A stretch of DNA of 36,673 nucleotides from the IMG/VR virus record IMGVR_UViG_3300024503_000006, positions 1-36,673 of that record. The stretch is one strand, 5' to 3'. The stretch comes from a virus. Shown here in pieces: positions 24,413 through 35,752 of this stretch (the first letter of the stretch is position 1; every line of letters begins with the position of its first letter). Below the pieces are notes generated by a model. That model worked only from the letters and a program-made list of their open reading frames with translations. It ran no database searches and was not told the origin of the DNA. A program made the translations under genes and the position numbers.

Positions 24413-25687
24413 TTATACAACCCATTTGGCGTTGATAGGCAAATCTGTTGACCATGAATCGTCGCTCTCGTCAAGCCCAATTGCCAAGTATCTGAAGGCA
24501 TCTGAGTAATGGCTAGACCAGTCGTGCAGTGGCTTATCGTAGAACACCTGCTGTTTCTCGTTATATTCCCGCCGATAGTTCCTCAAGGCATCCAGACCAG
24601 CCTTGGTTTTGTGGTCAAACCAGCAACGTGGCAGCAAGCGTCTGACAGCCTGAATCCCGTCAGCTATAGACAGTCTGGGCGCAACCGTAATCTCTAGTCC
24701 TGCCTCCTCTAAGACCTCCTTACGGCTCTTGCCAGTGCCTAGCTCCCTTACCTCAACGTCATGCGGAAGTATTTGCGAGAAGCCCTCGTACCTGTTCTCC
24801 CTGAGCCATGATACGTACCAATCCAGACCGACTCCGTGGTTTTCGATGCAGTCGATAAGCCTGATTTCCTTGCCAGCCAGTTGAGCCACCCATAGGCAAG
24901 TAGAGTCACCCATACCAAGATCCCAAGCAACAAAAGACTTGCAAAGGTCATCCCGGTCAATAGTCGTGATCCTAGACTTGGCTTCGAGATCGTTAATAAT
25001 CTGACCATAGTAACTACCCTCAACCGCTGCGTTAAAGGAACACTCAAACTCCTGAGCGTACTTGTCTTCGCCCATCTCCTTACGAGCAGCCCAGAGTTCT
25101 TTCTCGTTAAGAATCCCTGTCTCGCTGGCCCTGAACTCCAGTAACGCCCAGCCTTCTGCTGTCTGCGCCCTATCTCTAAAGTCAGCAAAGTGGTTCTTTC
25201 CCTTAGGCGTACCAATGAATAAGCACCACGTAGGAGCCTCGTCAGTGTTGCGGTCTGCTAATGCTGGTCTAATGACTTCGTTCCAGATCTTTGGGTTTTG
25301 GTCTCCGATTTCGTCAAGGACAACTCCATCAAAATACTGCCCCCTAAGGCTATCAGCATTATCAGACCCGTAAAGACTAATGCGCCGACCCCAAAAATCA
25401 ACCCTAAGTTCCGAGATATTAGCCACAGCCCCAAGAGGACGAGTAAATTCAAGTAAGTAATCCCACGCCACCCTTTTGGACTGAGCATAAGTCGGAGCAA
25501 TATAGGCAAATCGTGGGTTTGGTTTCTTGCACTCAATTGCAGCCTTTATGAGATGGTTAATGGCAGATACAGTCTTGCCCATACGACGATGAGCTACTAC
25601 AACCGTAAACCTGTGGTTATCTACTGCCTCATGGATCTTTAGCTGCTGCTCACGAGGCTTATAAGCAATCTCGATTACTTCTGCCAT
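24413..25687 (-). CDS. terL: Terminase large subunit
   Basis: The 424-aa packaging motor has an ATPase with Walker A AHRRMGKT (residues 32-39), Walker B FDGVVLDE (D125, E126) and coupling motif FIGTPKGKNHF. The C-terminal nuclease shows SFVAWDLGMGDST (D256), LPHDVEVRE (D310) and HDWSSHYSDAFRYLAIG at the end. All catalytic positions are present. It overlaps the small terminase gene by 13 bases. The packaging strategy cannot be told from sequence alone; the closed contig with no fixed ends would fit either headful packaging or cohesive ends joined by the assembler. Confidence 0.95.
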   Translation of the reverse strand: MAEVIEIAYKPREQQLKIHEAVDNHRFTVVVAHRRMGKTVSAINHLIKAAIECKKPNPRFAYIAPTYAQSKRVAWDYLLEFTRPLGAVANISELRVDFWGRRISLYGSDNADSLRGQYFDGVVLDEIGDQNPKIWNEVIRPALADRNTDEAPTWCLFIGTPKGKNHFADFRDRAQTAEGWALLEFRASETGILNEKELWAARKEMGEDKYAQEFECSFNAAVEGSYYGQIINDLEAKSRITTIDRDDLCKSFVAWDLGMGDSTCLWVAQLAGKEIRLIDCIENHGVGLDWYVSWLRENRYEGFSQILPHDVEVRELGTGKSRKEVLEEAGLEITVAPRLSIADGIQAVRRLLPRCWFDHKTKAGLDALRNYRREYNEKQQVFYDKPLHDWSSHYSDAFRYLAIGLDESDDSWSTDLPINAKWVV

Positions 25688-33266: not shown

Positions 33267-33277
33267 TGAAAATTCAT
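33256..33277 (-). repeat. Tandem 11-bp repeat at a gene junction
   Basis: On the minus strand ATGAATTTTCA occurs twice in a row. The first copy holds the helicase stop as ATGA and opens a four-codon frame, MNFQ-stop; the second copy holds the start of the 69-aa protein, MNFH. The mini-frame's stop overlaps the second ATG. The duplication therefore links the stop of one gene to the start of the next through a relay of two starts. Confidence 0.8.
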
Positions 33278-34242
33278 GCAGATTTAAACTTGCCTCTATT
33301 ATCGTAGTCACTCGGCTGACCCTCAAATCTCTCAATAAACTGGCTAGAATCTCGGTGGAACCAGAACGGATACCAGTCTGTACTTTCCCCATTCCGCTGC
33401 TTCTCGTTCATCAAAATCATATCTGGACTCTGAGGATCTATCTCCTGACCCTTCTGGATATCGTTCTCTTTCTTTTTGTTGCGCCACACAATAAACACGT
33501 TATCTACCTGATCCGTAATCGAAGACGAGCCTCGCAGGTCATTCTTGTTCGGCATTAGCTCATCAGATTGCAGCTTGCGGATATGGTGGATCAAGTGGAT
33601 ATGGCAGTCGTGATCCCTAGCCAAAGCAGTCATCTCATCTACAAATTTCTTTTGTCCGTTGTAGTCATCCTCACCGGCAACTACCTTCATCAGGCTATCC
33701 ACGAAGAAATGCTGAACACCTAGTTCTACAGCGCAATATCTTGCCACTGAGATAATCTGTTCCGCAGACGTAGTTCCTTGCTGGTCATAGAACCAAAGAT
33801 TACCTTGAGCAAAAGCCTTAAAACGGGCGTATAAGGCGCGTTTGTAGGGTTCCCCTTGTCTTGATGCCTCCCAGTCGATGTTTTCGCCTGCAAACTGCCT
33901 TAAAAGCCGTTTAATCGATACTCTAGGTTTCATCTCAAAGCTGGCAATACAGCATTTCTGCTCAGACTTGATTAAACCCAGTGCAACCTGACCTGTCAGC
34001 AAGGACTTACCGCCACCATTGGAACCTGCCCAAACCGTTACCTCACCCGGCCTGAAAGCAAACGACTTTGTGGCTTCCCAGACCATAGGAACAGACCGAT
34101 CTACCAGCGGGTTATCAATCTGGTCTTCAAGCTCATCAATCCAGACCGAAGCGTCCTTGACTAGGTACTTGTGGTCTGTAGCGTGTAGGTAAGCAGAGAA
34201 ATCAATATTGTCAGTCAGGTACATAGTCATCATATTCCTCAA
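33274..34242 (-). CDS. DnaB-like replicative helicase
   Basis: The product has the RecA-fold motor of DnaB/gp4 helicases: Walker A GSNGGGKS (residues 73-80), SFEM with a catalytic Glu (E103), Walker B HFFVDSL (D182), HIHLIHHIRK as motif H3, then RGSSSITDQVDNVFIVWRNK and LMNEKQRNGE with the arginine-finger region. It lacks a primase domain and the DnaB N-terminal collar, so it would use host primase. In-frame ATGs at 34242, 34233, 34230 and 34224 make the start unclear; 34230, with GAGG six bases upstream, is best. It follows the DUF1376 gene block. Confidence 0.9.
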   Translation of the reverse strand: MRNMMTMYLTDNIDFSAYLHATDHKYLVKDASVWIDELEDQIDNPLVDRSVPMVWEATKSFAFRPGEVTVWAGSNGGGKSLLTGQVALGLIKSEQKCCIASFEMKPRVSIKRLLRQFAGENIDWEASRQGEPYKRALYARFKAFAQGNLWFYDQQGTTSAEQIISVARYCAVELGVQHFFVDSLMKVVAGEDDYNGQKKFVDEMTALARDHDCHIHLIHHIRKLQSDELMPNKNDLRGSSSITDQVDNVFIVWRNKKKENDIQKGQEIDPQSPDMILMNEKQRNGESTDWYPFWFHRDSSQFIERFEGQPSDYDNRGKFKSA

Positions 34243-35181: not shown

Positions 35182-35192
35182 AGCTTTTCCAT

Positions 35193-35293
35193 AAAAAAAG
35201 CCCTAGGAGAGACTCTCACCAATTAAGGTGTTGGCAGACTGGCGGGTAACCAGCAGAGTCCCTTCTAGGGCTTACCCATAAACGCGCTGCCAA
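35193..35293 (-). ncRNA. Candidate pseudoknotted attenuator / riboswitch-like leader
   Basis: Minus-strand RNA upstream of the DUF1376 gene. Terminator form: AAGCCCTAG 35273-35265 pairs with CTAGGGCTT 35206-35198, GGGACTC 35262-35256 with GAGTCTC 35215-35209 (one G-U), then a run of seven U. Inside are hairpins CTGG/CCAG (35253-35250 with 35242-35239) and CACC/GGTG (35230-35227 around AATT with 35220-35217). Two further perfect pairings cross this: TTGGCAG 35293-35287 with CTGCCAA 35237-35231, and GGGTAA 35277-35272 with TTACCC 35249-35244, which is the loop of the CTGG/CCAG hairpin. The first could form a pseudoknot with the terminator; the second shares two bases with the terminator stem and competes with it. 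The G-U pair favours the minus strand. Confidence 0.65.
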
Positions 35294-35304
35294 GCACGTT
35301 TTAA

Positions 35305-35403
35305 TTATACGGACTTGTTTCTAATACTACAAGACCGACAAACTTCACTGTTCTCAAACTGGATTCCACTACGGGAACGCTTACACTTTGGACAAACCCT
35401 CAT
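35305..35403 (-). CDS. Predicted 32-aa zinc-finger-like peptide
   Basis: A 32-codon frame starting at ATG 35403 inside the end of the preceding gene (23-base overlap). The peptide reads MRVCPKCKRSRSGIQFEN, then SEVCRSCSIRNKSV; the two CxxC pairs (C4/C7 and C22/C25) are spaced like a small zinc ribbon. The Shine-Dalgarno is weak, so coupling to the upstream gene is likely. It lies just before the structured leader RNA. The CxxC pairs are unlikely by chance, so I regard it as probable. Confidence 0.6.
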   Translation of the reverse strand: MRVCPKCKRSRSGIQFENSEVCRSCSIRNKSV

Positions 35404-35752
35404 TCCGAAAAAATGTGTCTTTGACGTTGCTAACACACGTTTTAAATGATCTTTCGGCAATTTGTTGTCCACGGGGAGAAACCTTTGGTAAAAATGTCTT
35501 TAACGGCTTAAATTCTGGCTGATATTTAGCTGGCACTATGTCCATTACAACAGCCATTTTTTCAGGCTGTCCGACAGGGAAGTATACATTACCTATCTTT
35601 CGGAGTTTCTGATAATTAACTAAAGTCTGTAGTTCACTCTTTAAATCATAGGTTTTTTCAAGGCCAAATAGCCCAAAATTCATCAGGAACGACTCAGCAG
35701 TCATCCCGCCAAACTTATGGAATACTTCTAGGATACGTTCCCTACGGCTCAT
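35381..35752 (-). CDS. Winged-helix-like early protein, 123 aa
   Basis: Start set at ATG 35752 (MSRRERILEVFHKFGGMTAE), which has AAGGAG upstream and overlaps the previous stop as ATGA; the frame is open to 35797 but that is inside the upstream gene. Residues about 3-62 look like a winged helix (SFLMNFGLFGLEKTYDLKS, LQTLVNYQKLRKIGNVYFPV). The C-terminal half is basic and low-complexity. It is the third gene of the leftward operon, so early DNA-binding regulation is plausible but unproven. Confidence 0.7.
   Translation of the reverse strand: MSRRERILEVFHKFGGMTAESFLMNFGLFGLEKTYDLKSELQTLVNYQKLRKIGNVYFPVGQPEKMAVVMDIVPAKYQPEFKPLKTFLPKVSPRGQQIAERSFKTCVSNVKDTFFRNEGLSKV

Follow-up and report, generated by a model that had tools for sequence, protein, structure and literature searches.

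To our knowledge, few structured regulatory RNAs have been described in phages, and very few systems are known in which a phage replication initiator is under RNA control. The put RNAs of phage HK022, which consist of two simple hairpins, are leaders that bind RNA polymerase and make it resistant to later terminators of the early operon, and the int-alpA RNA (Rfam RF02996), whose own role is unexplained, precedes the replication gene in phages related to the one considered here. The window analyzed here is the whole 36,673-nt stretch of IMG/VR virus record IMGVR_UViG_3300024503_000006, and the minus strand of its positions 35299-35193 carries a compact leader RNA of about 105 nt. It lies between a zinc-ribbon-like ORF upstream and a replication gene (DUF1376) directly downstream, the neighbors that an earlier note on this DNA had named. 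In its fold (Table 1), a 5′ hairpin is followed by a closing helix of 19 positions, which encloses two inner hairpins and leads into seven U; two pseudoknots complete the structure. The RNA is neither int-alpA, nor any Rfam riboswitch, nor an HDV-like ribozyme; it represents a family not described before and distinct in fold, of the structured leader RNA kind.

Table 1. Features of the leader RNA locus (window coordinates)
Feature	Positions	Strand	Evidence or remark
Small zinc-ribbon-like peptide ORF (CPKC...CRSC)	35305..35472	-	ORF list; 3′ end overlaps the promoter-like sequence
Sigma-70-type promoter-like sequence, TTGTAG-17 nt-TATAAT	35304..35332	-	predicted start close to base 1 of the RNA
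P0, 5′ hairpin, ACGTGC-loop-GCGCGT	35282..35299	-	96.6% paired; compensatory changes in 4 of 5 pairs
PK1, 5′ strand, TTGGCAG	35287..35293	-	pairs with 35237-35231
PK1, 3′ strand, CTGCCAA	35231..35237	-	between P3 and P4
PK2, 5′ strand, GGGTA	35273..35277	-	adjoins the terminator helix; last A common to both
PK2, 3′ strand, TACCC	35244..35248	-	within the P3 loop
P1, 5′ strand, AAGCCCTAG (lower closing helix, terminator stem)	35265..35273	-	9 bp, AAGCCCTAG/CTAGGGCTT, with 35206-35198; sequence varies with compensation, length constant
P2, 5′ strand, AGGGACTCT (upper closing helix)	35255..35263	-	AGGGACTCT/AGAGTCTCT, 9 pairs including one G-U; follows the mismatch at 35264
P2 and P1, 3′ strands, AGAGTCTCT-C-CTAGGGCTT	35198..35216	-	closing helix, covariation
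P3, hairpin, CTGG-TTACCCG-CCAG	35239..35253	-	99.6% paired; 3 of 4 pairs changed on both sides
P4, hairpin, CACC-TTAATT-GGTG	35217..35230	-	loop length variable; 99.2% paired; 3 of 4 pairs changed on both sides
U-tract (seven T), tail of intrinsic-terminator type directly 3′ of P1	35193..35199	-	sequence; in nearly all copies
Shine-Dalgarno-like GGAAAA of the downstream gene	35185..35190	-	sequence
DUF1376/phage primosomal (replication initiation) protein, 210 aa	34549..35181	-	PF07120, 1.3e-24; PHROG 3992, 1.5e-35
DnaB-like replicative helicase, same operon	33274..34242	-	PF03796, 3e-16; PHROG 239 and 19

Inspection of the sequence located on the minus strand all of the pairings that had been named. 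The 9-bp stem followed by seven U stood as described, the supposed 7-bp stem turned out to be part of the nine-pair P2, and of the element bounds first given (35193-35293) the core was retained while the 5′ end moved to 35299 with the inclusion of P0; the promoter-like sequence and a fourth hairpin, P4, were added. The P0 loop TTGGCA(G) is itself the 5′ strand of PK1, P3 is flanked by an invariant G.U (35254/35238), and PK2 may take in a sixth pair (GGGTA(A)/(T)TACCC, 35277-35272 with 35249-35244). Folding of the single sequence gave -51.4 kcal/mol (-34.4 ± 3.8 for shuffled sequences, z = -4.4), an energy that none of 200 shuffles reached.

To compare homologues, 59 distinct copies of less than about 90% identity were aligned with MAFFT without use of structure (alignment A1), and a structure of 42 pairs including both pseudoknots was read from A1 and the window sequence. 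Standard pairs occupy 96.8% of the pair cells in the 59 copies, compared with 84.3% after shuffling, a control that leaves relatedness in, and 35-47% after sliding the partners, which removes it. Compensatory changes on both sides were found in 31 of the 42 pairs, and 0 of 500 shuffles attained any of the covariation measures. In PK1, 99.7% of cells form pairs and three pairs have changed on both sides (TTGGCAG/CTGCCAA, TTGGCGG/CCGCCAA, TTGACGG/CCGTCAA and TTGGAGG/CCTCCAA); in PK2 the figure is 96.6%, with all four pairs changed on both sides, and the P3 stem occurs as CTGG/CCAG, CCAG/CTGG and CAGG/CCTG. The very divergent copy of MW202462 has a closing helix almost wholly different in sequence that still pairs. 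Chance pairing is excluded because of both the shuffle folding and the conservation of pairs among homologues relative to these controls, and the two extra pairings that the earlier note had suggested are real pseudoknots, covarying in homologous leaders, an outcome it had counted as support. Loss of both pairings beside unchanged neighbors, which it had regarded as fatal, was not encountered: existing copies keep both pairings, and relatives without the element carry another RNA.

Conservation extends beyond the helices. In the P0 loop, TTG and the closing C-G are invariant in the 59-copy alignment, and the junction has an invariant core (CUCUGC..., GUC..., CAAC and GAGAG) that exceeds the needs of pairing, suggesting that something reads the junction; this invariance was partly imposed by the DNA search patterns and holds also in loci fetched via proteins. 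The conserved loops are all consumed by internal pairing, and the free stretches vary in length and sequence. A single position of the closing helix (A1 columns 41/108, window 35264/35207) is an A.C, U.U or C.C mismatch, unpaired in 55 of 59 copies.

The earlier note had further proposed a fold competing with the terminator, which the homologues do not support, as each of them conserves the terminator helix alongside PK1 and PK2. The closing helix spans 19 positions without a gap in A1 columns 32-50 or 99-117 in 59/59 copies, whereas a free terminator stem is not expected to be constrained to one length, and one joint architecture is therefore indicated. P0 and the linker from P3 to P4 are also fixed in length; the P0-PK2 linker and the P4 loop are variable, as is, slightly, the P3 loop. 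These features suggest a tertiary architecture that includes the closing helix, with PK2 folded back alongside it. PK2 and P1 conflict directly in pairing at only two shared bases, both A, to which any competition would be confined. In a coarse rigid-body model with A-form phosphates, crude enough to serve only against a claim of mutual exclusion, full coexistence of PK2 and P1 is strained (15 Å needed, 6.5 Å available) and becomes possible once the lowest three pairs of the terminator helix are open, PK2 needing no more than three. Outright mutual exclusion of PK2 and P1 is weakened by this test together with the fixed helix length. No antiterminator pairing with covariation was found; a pairing of the terminator tail with the ribosome site (GCUUUUU/AAAAAGC), seen by eye in many copies, is explained by U- and A-rich composition.

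Both ends of the RNA bear transcription-type signals. Of 60 diverse copies, 42 have a -10-like hexamer 5-6 nt 5′ of P0, frequently accompanied by TTG... at a spacing of 17 nt; the mean best -10 score is 4.9 of 6 (3.85 in shuffles, highest shuffle mean 4.03). The -10 box is retained where the upstream sequence is unrelated (L091 and L107); the -35 often falls within the coding end of the zinc-ribbon ORF, an ORF matching nothing in Pfam or PHROG, so that its conservation may be partly coding. The window promoter was not listed by a stricter consensus scan. At the 3′ end, the G+C-rich P1/P2 stem is followed at once by seven U, an arrangement of intrinsic-terminator type present in nearly all copies; a simple terminator scanner reported none for the window element because the stem encloses a junction instead of a loop of 3-8 nt.

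The position before the next gene is nearly constant. An ATG behind a Shine-Dalgarno-like site follows the U-tract by 8-16 nt (11 nt in the window) in 137 of 145 copies, compared with 110 of 1,450 random positions (7.6%), the same-strand placement characteristic of a cis-acting leader. By BLAST linkage, 88 of the downstream genes form one large cluster in which replication initiators dominate; the others include 30 small ORFs (65-84 aa), nine ParB-like genes, and HNH or GIY-YIG-like endonuclease families, and Pfam searches with ten cluster representatives returned HNH, ParB-like, T5orf172 or no domain. Control of helicase and replication gene expression, which the earlier note had put forward as a possibility, is plausible; in some phages the element stands before a gene of another kind. 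The 30-member small-ORF cluster is frequent directly behind the RNA (e.g. L287, 84 aa, MLKFQATEGCEAFINDAGCLVIKQ...) and matches nothing in Pfam. Homing-type endonuclease genes directly behind the RNA were observed in L247, L308, L303 and L305 (HNH or HNH-like) and in L325 (T5orf172/MUG113), as though genes were preferentially exchanged or inserted where the RNA meets the ATG.

Relatives without the element carry a different conserved RNA in the same slot. Loci L008 (40.9 bits) and L021 (39.4 bits) passed the RF02996 gathering cut-off of 35.8 bits and L014 fell just below it, and a loose pattern found int-alpA-like RNA in 45 of 80 DUF1376 loci; many of the remaining loci show degenerate versions. 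Of the 58 helicase-linked loci whose upstream sequence was long enough, 34 carry the window element alone, 21 carry the int-alpA-like RNA alone, one carries both (by the loose pattern) and two carry neither, so that the slot is filled in 56. Even phages with helicases at least 95% identical differ, six carrying one RNA and one (L089) the other. In the int-alpA-like RNA, the loop of the second hairpin has its complement in the 3′ flank, close to the ribosome site, and the pairing covaries (e.g. UCGUUAC/GUAACGA and UAGUCAC/GUGACUA); the mean longest match of loop and flank is 5.5, versus 4.24 ± 0.19 across loci, a few of the 26 pattern hits being false positives in coding sequence. RNAs of this type, RF02996 or its relatives, are widespread as leaders of phage replication initiator genes; in L003, L008, L009, L011, L014, L021, L027, L032, L053 and many others they precede the DUF1376 start by no more than about 120 nt. 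L049 and L070 share a third sequence (GTGAGAAGCGCAT...GAATTCTCACC) in the same slot, about 130 nt before the DUF1376 start (3001), which is possibly yet another leader RNA. The slot is optional, since in L460 and L461 the replication gene stands close behind cro and neither the window model nor the Rfam int-alpA model matched.

Loci were fetched from IMG/VR via the DUF1376 protein, the DnaB-like helicase and DNA patterns, and nhmmer over the fetched phage contigs gave at least 220 matches representing at least 147 distinct sequences. The family is sharply bounded, a locus showing either a strong match (about 70-115 bits) or none. In 30 longer contigs there was one strong match each, on the coding strand, and the weaker matches were the opposite strand of the same place except for one 24-bit match elsewhere in G003. 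Among annotated phage genomes, only two environmental Manatee Spring records carry the element: queries with the conserved core and a diverged copy found an identical stretch only in these two, and DNA similarity searches found no copy in named phage isolates. A 24-base terminator pattern was absent from 84,980 bacterial and archaeal genomes, and 116 stretches obtained from that genome collection with a shorter pattern were chance hits, nhmmer finding the element in none. Rfam searches at the gathering cut-off (window) and to E ≤ 10 (element) yielded nothing credible, in agreement with the earlier statement that no family was recognized, and no description of the motif was found in the open-access journal literature covered.

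The environmental phage MW202462 has a lambda-like layout of cro, RNA, replication gene and ninB, the RNA being flanked by a Cro-like ORF and the replication ORF. The depositors of MW202462.1 left this replication ORF (L458:1027-1728) unannotated, and an annotated minus-strand 'hypothetical protein' (L458:817-1059) that spans the RNA itself is probably spurious. The terminase large subunit of the window (24413-25687, minus strand) is closest to those of Methylophilales phage Venkman (65%, OM43 host) and a Manatee Spring podovirus, suggesting a host of betaproteobacterial type.

We interpret the element, with moderate confidence, as a member of an undescribed phage leader RNA family that acts in cis as a transcription attenuator. 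The layout is best read as riboswitch-like and gating early and replication operons, and the RNA most likely sets the amount of replication genes made. Since only a Shine-Dalgarno site fits between the U-tract and the ATG, transcription of the downstream genes must run through the element; the terminator lies within the fold, and therefore the element would set how much transcription passes. Transcription would start at its own promoter or arrive from upstream early genes. As the RNA emerges, P0 would form first, followed by docking of P3 on the 5′ linker via PK2, then PK1, which would join the P0 loop to the junction, then P4 and finally P2/P1. The closing helix and U-tract would end transcription near 35193 and release a free RNA of about 105 nt, while polymerases that do not terminate would proceed to the ribosome site and the ATG 8-16 nt on, allowing expression of the replication genes. 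An effector, such as a small molecule, a phage or host protein, or RNA polymerase, probably reads the invariant core formed by junction and PK1 and would shift the balance of termination and read-through and thereby turn the replication genes on at the right time. Attenuation is supported by covariation throughout the helices and both pseudoknots, by the -10 box at its fixed place, by the covarying pseudoknot that the alternative int-alpA-like RNA has of its own, by the position of the RNA in MW202462, by the use of all conserved loops in internal pairing, by the spacing of U-tract, Shine-Dalgarno site and ATG, kept although the downstream gene families differ, and by the presence of exactly one of two RNA families in the slot of 55 of the 58 helicase-linked loci. 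On the other side, the spacing could persist through mosaic exchange at the ATG with no regulation involved, a terminator helix of strictly fixed length fits a stand-alone RNA as well, and both the lack of a covarying antiterminator and the L460 and L461 arrangement count against it.

The main rival, itself rather doubtful, is an autonomous small non-coding RNA gene made up of promoter, 105-nt knotted RNA and terminator, which would act in trans, for example on a host or phage protein or RNA polymerase, with the next gene using read-through. The signals at its two ends, the fixed length of all helices, the compact fold that is complete when transcription ends, and the rigid-body test, which permits PK2 and nearly all of P1 together, fit such a gene, and Rfam classes int-alpA, the occupant of the same slot in relatives, as a small RNA gene. 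However, the ATG nearly always at the same distance downstream, whatever the gene, is needless for a trans-acting RNA, there is no free conserved seed for base pairing, and the one-for-one swap with a different RNA speaks against it. A put-like RNA, loaded on RNA polymerase to confer resistance to later early-operon terminators, is unlikely: the place between an early promoter, which it closely follows, and the replication operon, the strong, protein-free fold and the gene order of MW202462 would suit it, but put RNAs are simpler and the element RNA itself ends in a terminator. That the locus is a DNA-level or R-loop replication origin element only resembling RNA structure is very unlikely, since for all its location at the head of replication genes the G-U pairs and model scores (109 bits on the minus strand, the strand assigned in the earlier note, vs 36 on the plus strand) favor one strand, pseudoknots are typical of RNA, and ParB-like and HNH genes are headed by it too. 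The notion of a merely strong intrinsic terminator between two genes with incidental extra pairings accounts for the stem and U-tract and is scarcely credible, as plain terminators would not conserve the features seen in the 59 copies, namely covarying pseudoknots, P0 and P4, a fixed helix length and invariant junction bases.

It is possible, though we advance it tentatively, that the RNA is a new phage class of riboswitch-type sensor, a nested double pseudoknot in which the closing helix would be both aptamer stem and terminator and which would respond to a signal and so time replication. If so, at least two unrelated RNA families have been swapped by evolution in one 'replication gate' slot. 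A well-supported fold absent from Rfam is present in more than 100 contigs of uncultured aquatic phages. It nearly always immediately precedes a gene of the early or replication type, and the int-alpA-like RNA is its alternate. The pairing of the two families leads to the concrete hypothesis that they are interchangeable regulators of replication onset, and makes the new family a test bed for seeking effector and mechanism.

Among known systems, the c4/P4 CI antisense RNAs have an Rfam family (c4) that matched nothing in the window; in the element the conserved loops are taken by PK1 and PK2 and the free stretches are variable, the search for targets having been partial. Type III toxin-antitoxin RNA (ToxI) shares the order of promoter, pseudoknotted RNA, terminator and gene, but the element has no tandem repeats, and none of the downstream genes that were examined belongs to a toxin family of the ToxN type; this candidate was rejected on the single strong match per record (30 records) and the downstream HNH, ParB-like, T5orf172 and Pfam-negative genes, with DUF1376 in the window. 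An HDV-like ribozyme resembles the element in being a nested double pseudoknot and in strand order (P1 5′, P2, P3, P1 3′, P4, P2 3′, with PK1 read as P1), but the element encloses its P1 5′ strand in a hairpin, pairs L3 with the 5′ linker and lacks the J4/2 linker carrying the catalytic C; it was rejected because P4 adjoins the closing helix (columns 98/99) in 59/59 copies, and Rfam gave no match. Like the put RNA of HK022, the element is a structured leader just behind an early phage promoter and ahead of replication genes, with a far more elaborate fold. A riboswitch on a terminator platform has the same succession of promoter, conserved junction core, sequence-variable terminator, ribosome site and gene, although the element matches no riboswitch family described in Rfam and has no metabolic gene downstream, no antiterminator found and no known ligand. 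The RF02996 model matched neither the window at the gathering cut-off nor the element to E = 10, and the bases conserved in int-alpA RNA (CUAG, CGAAAAG and CCUG, in order) are absent from the window element and from A1; int-alpA RNA also has two inner hairpins, no P0 or PK1, and a pseudoknot that reaches to the 3′ flank, where the window element uses the 5′ flank. Yet the two RNAs share a closing stem that encloses hairpins, a pseudoknot from loop to flank and, in related phages, the same slot of promoter, RNA, ribosome site and replication gene.
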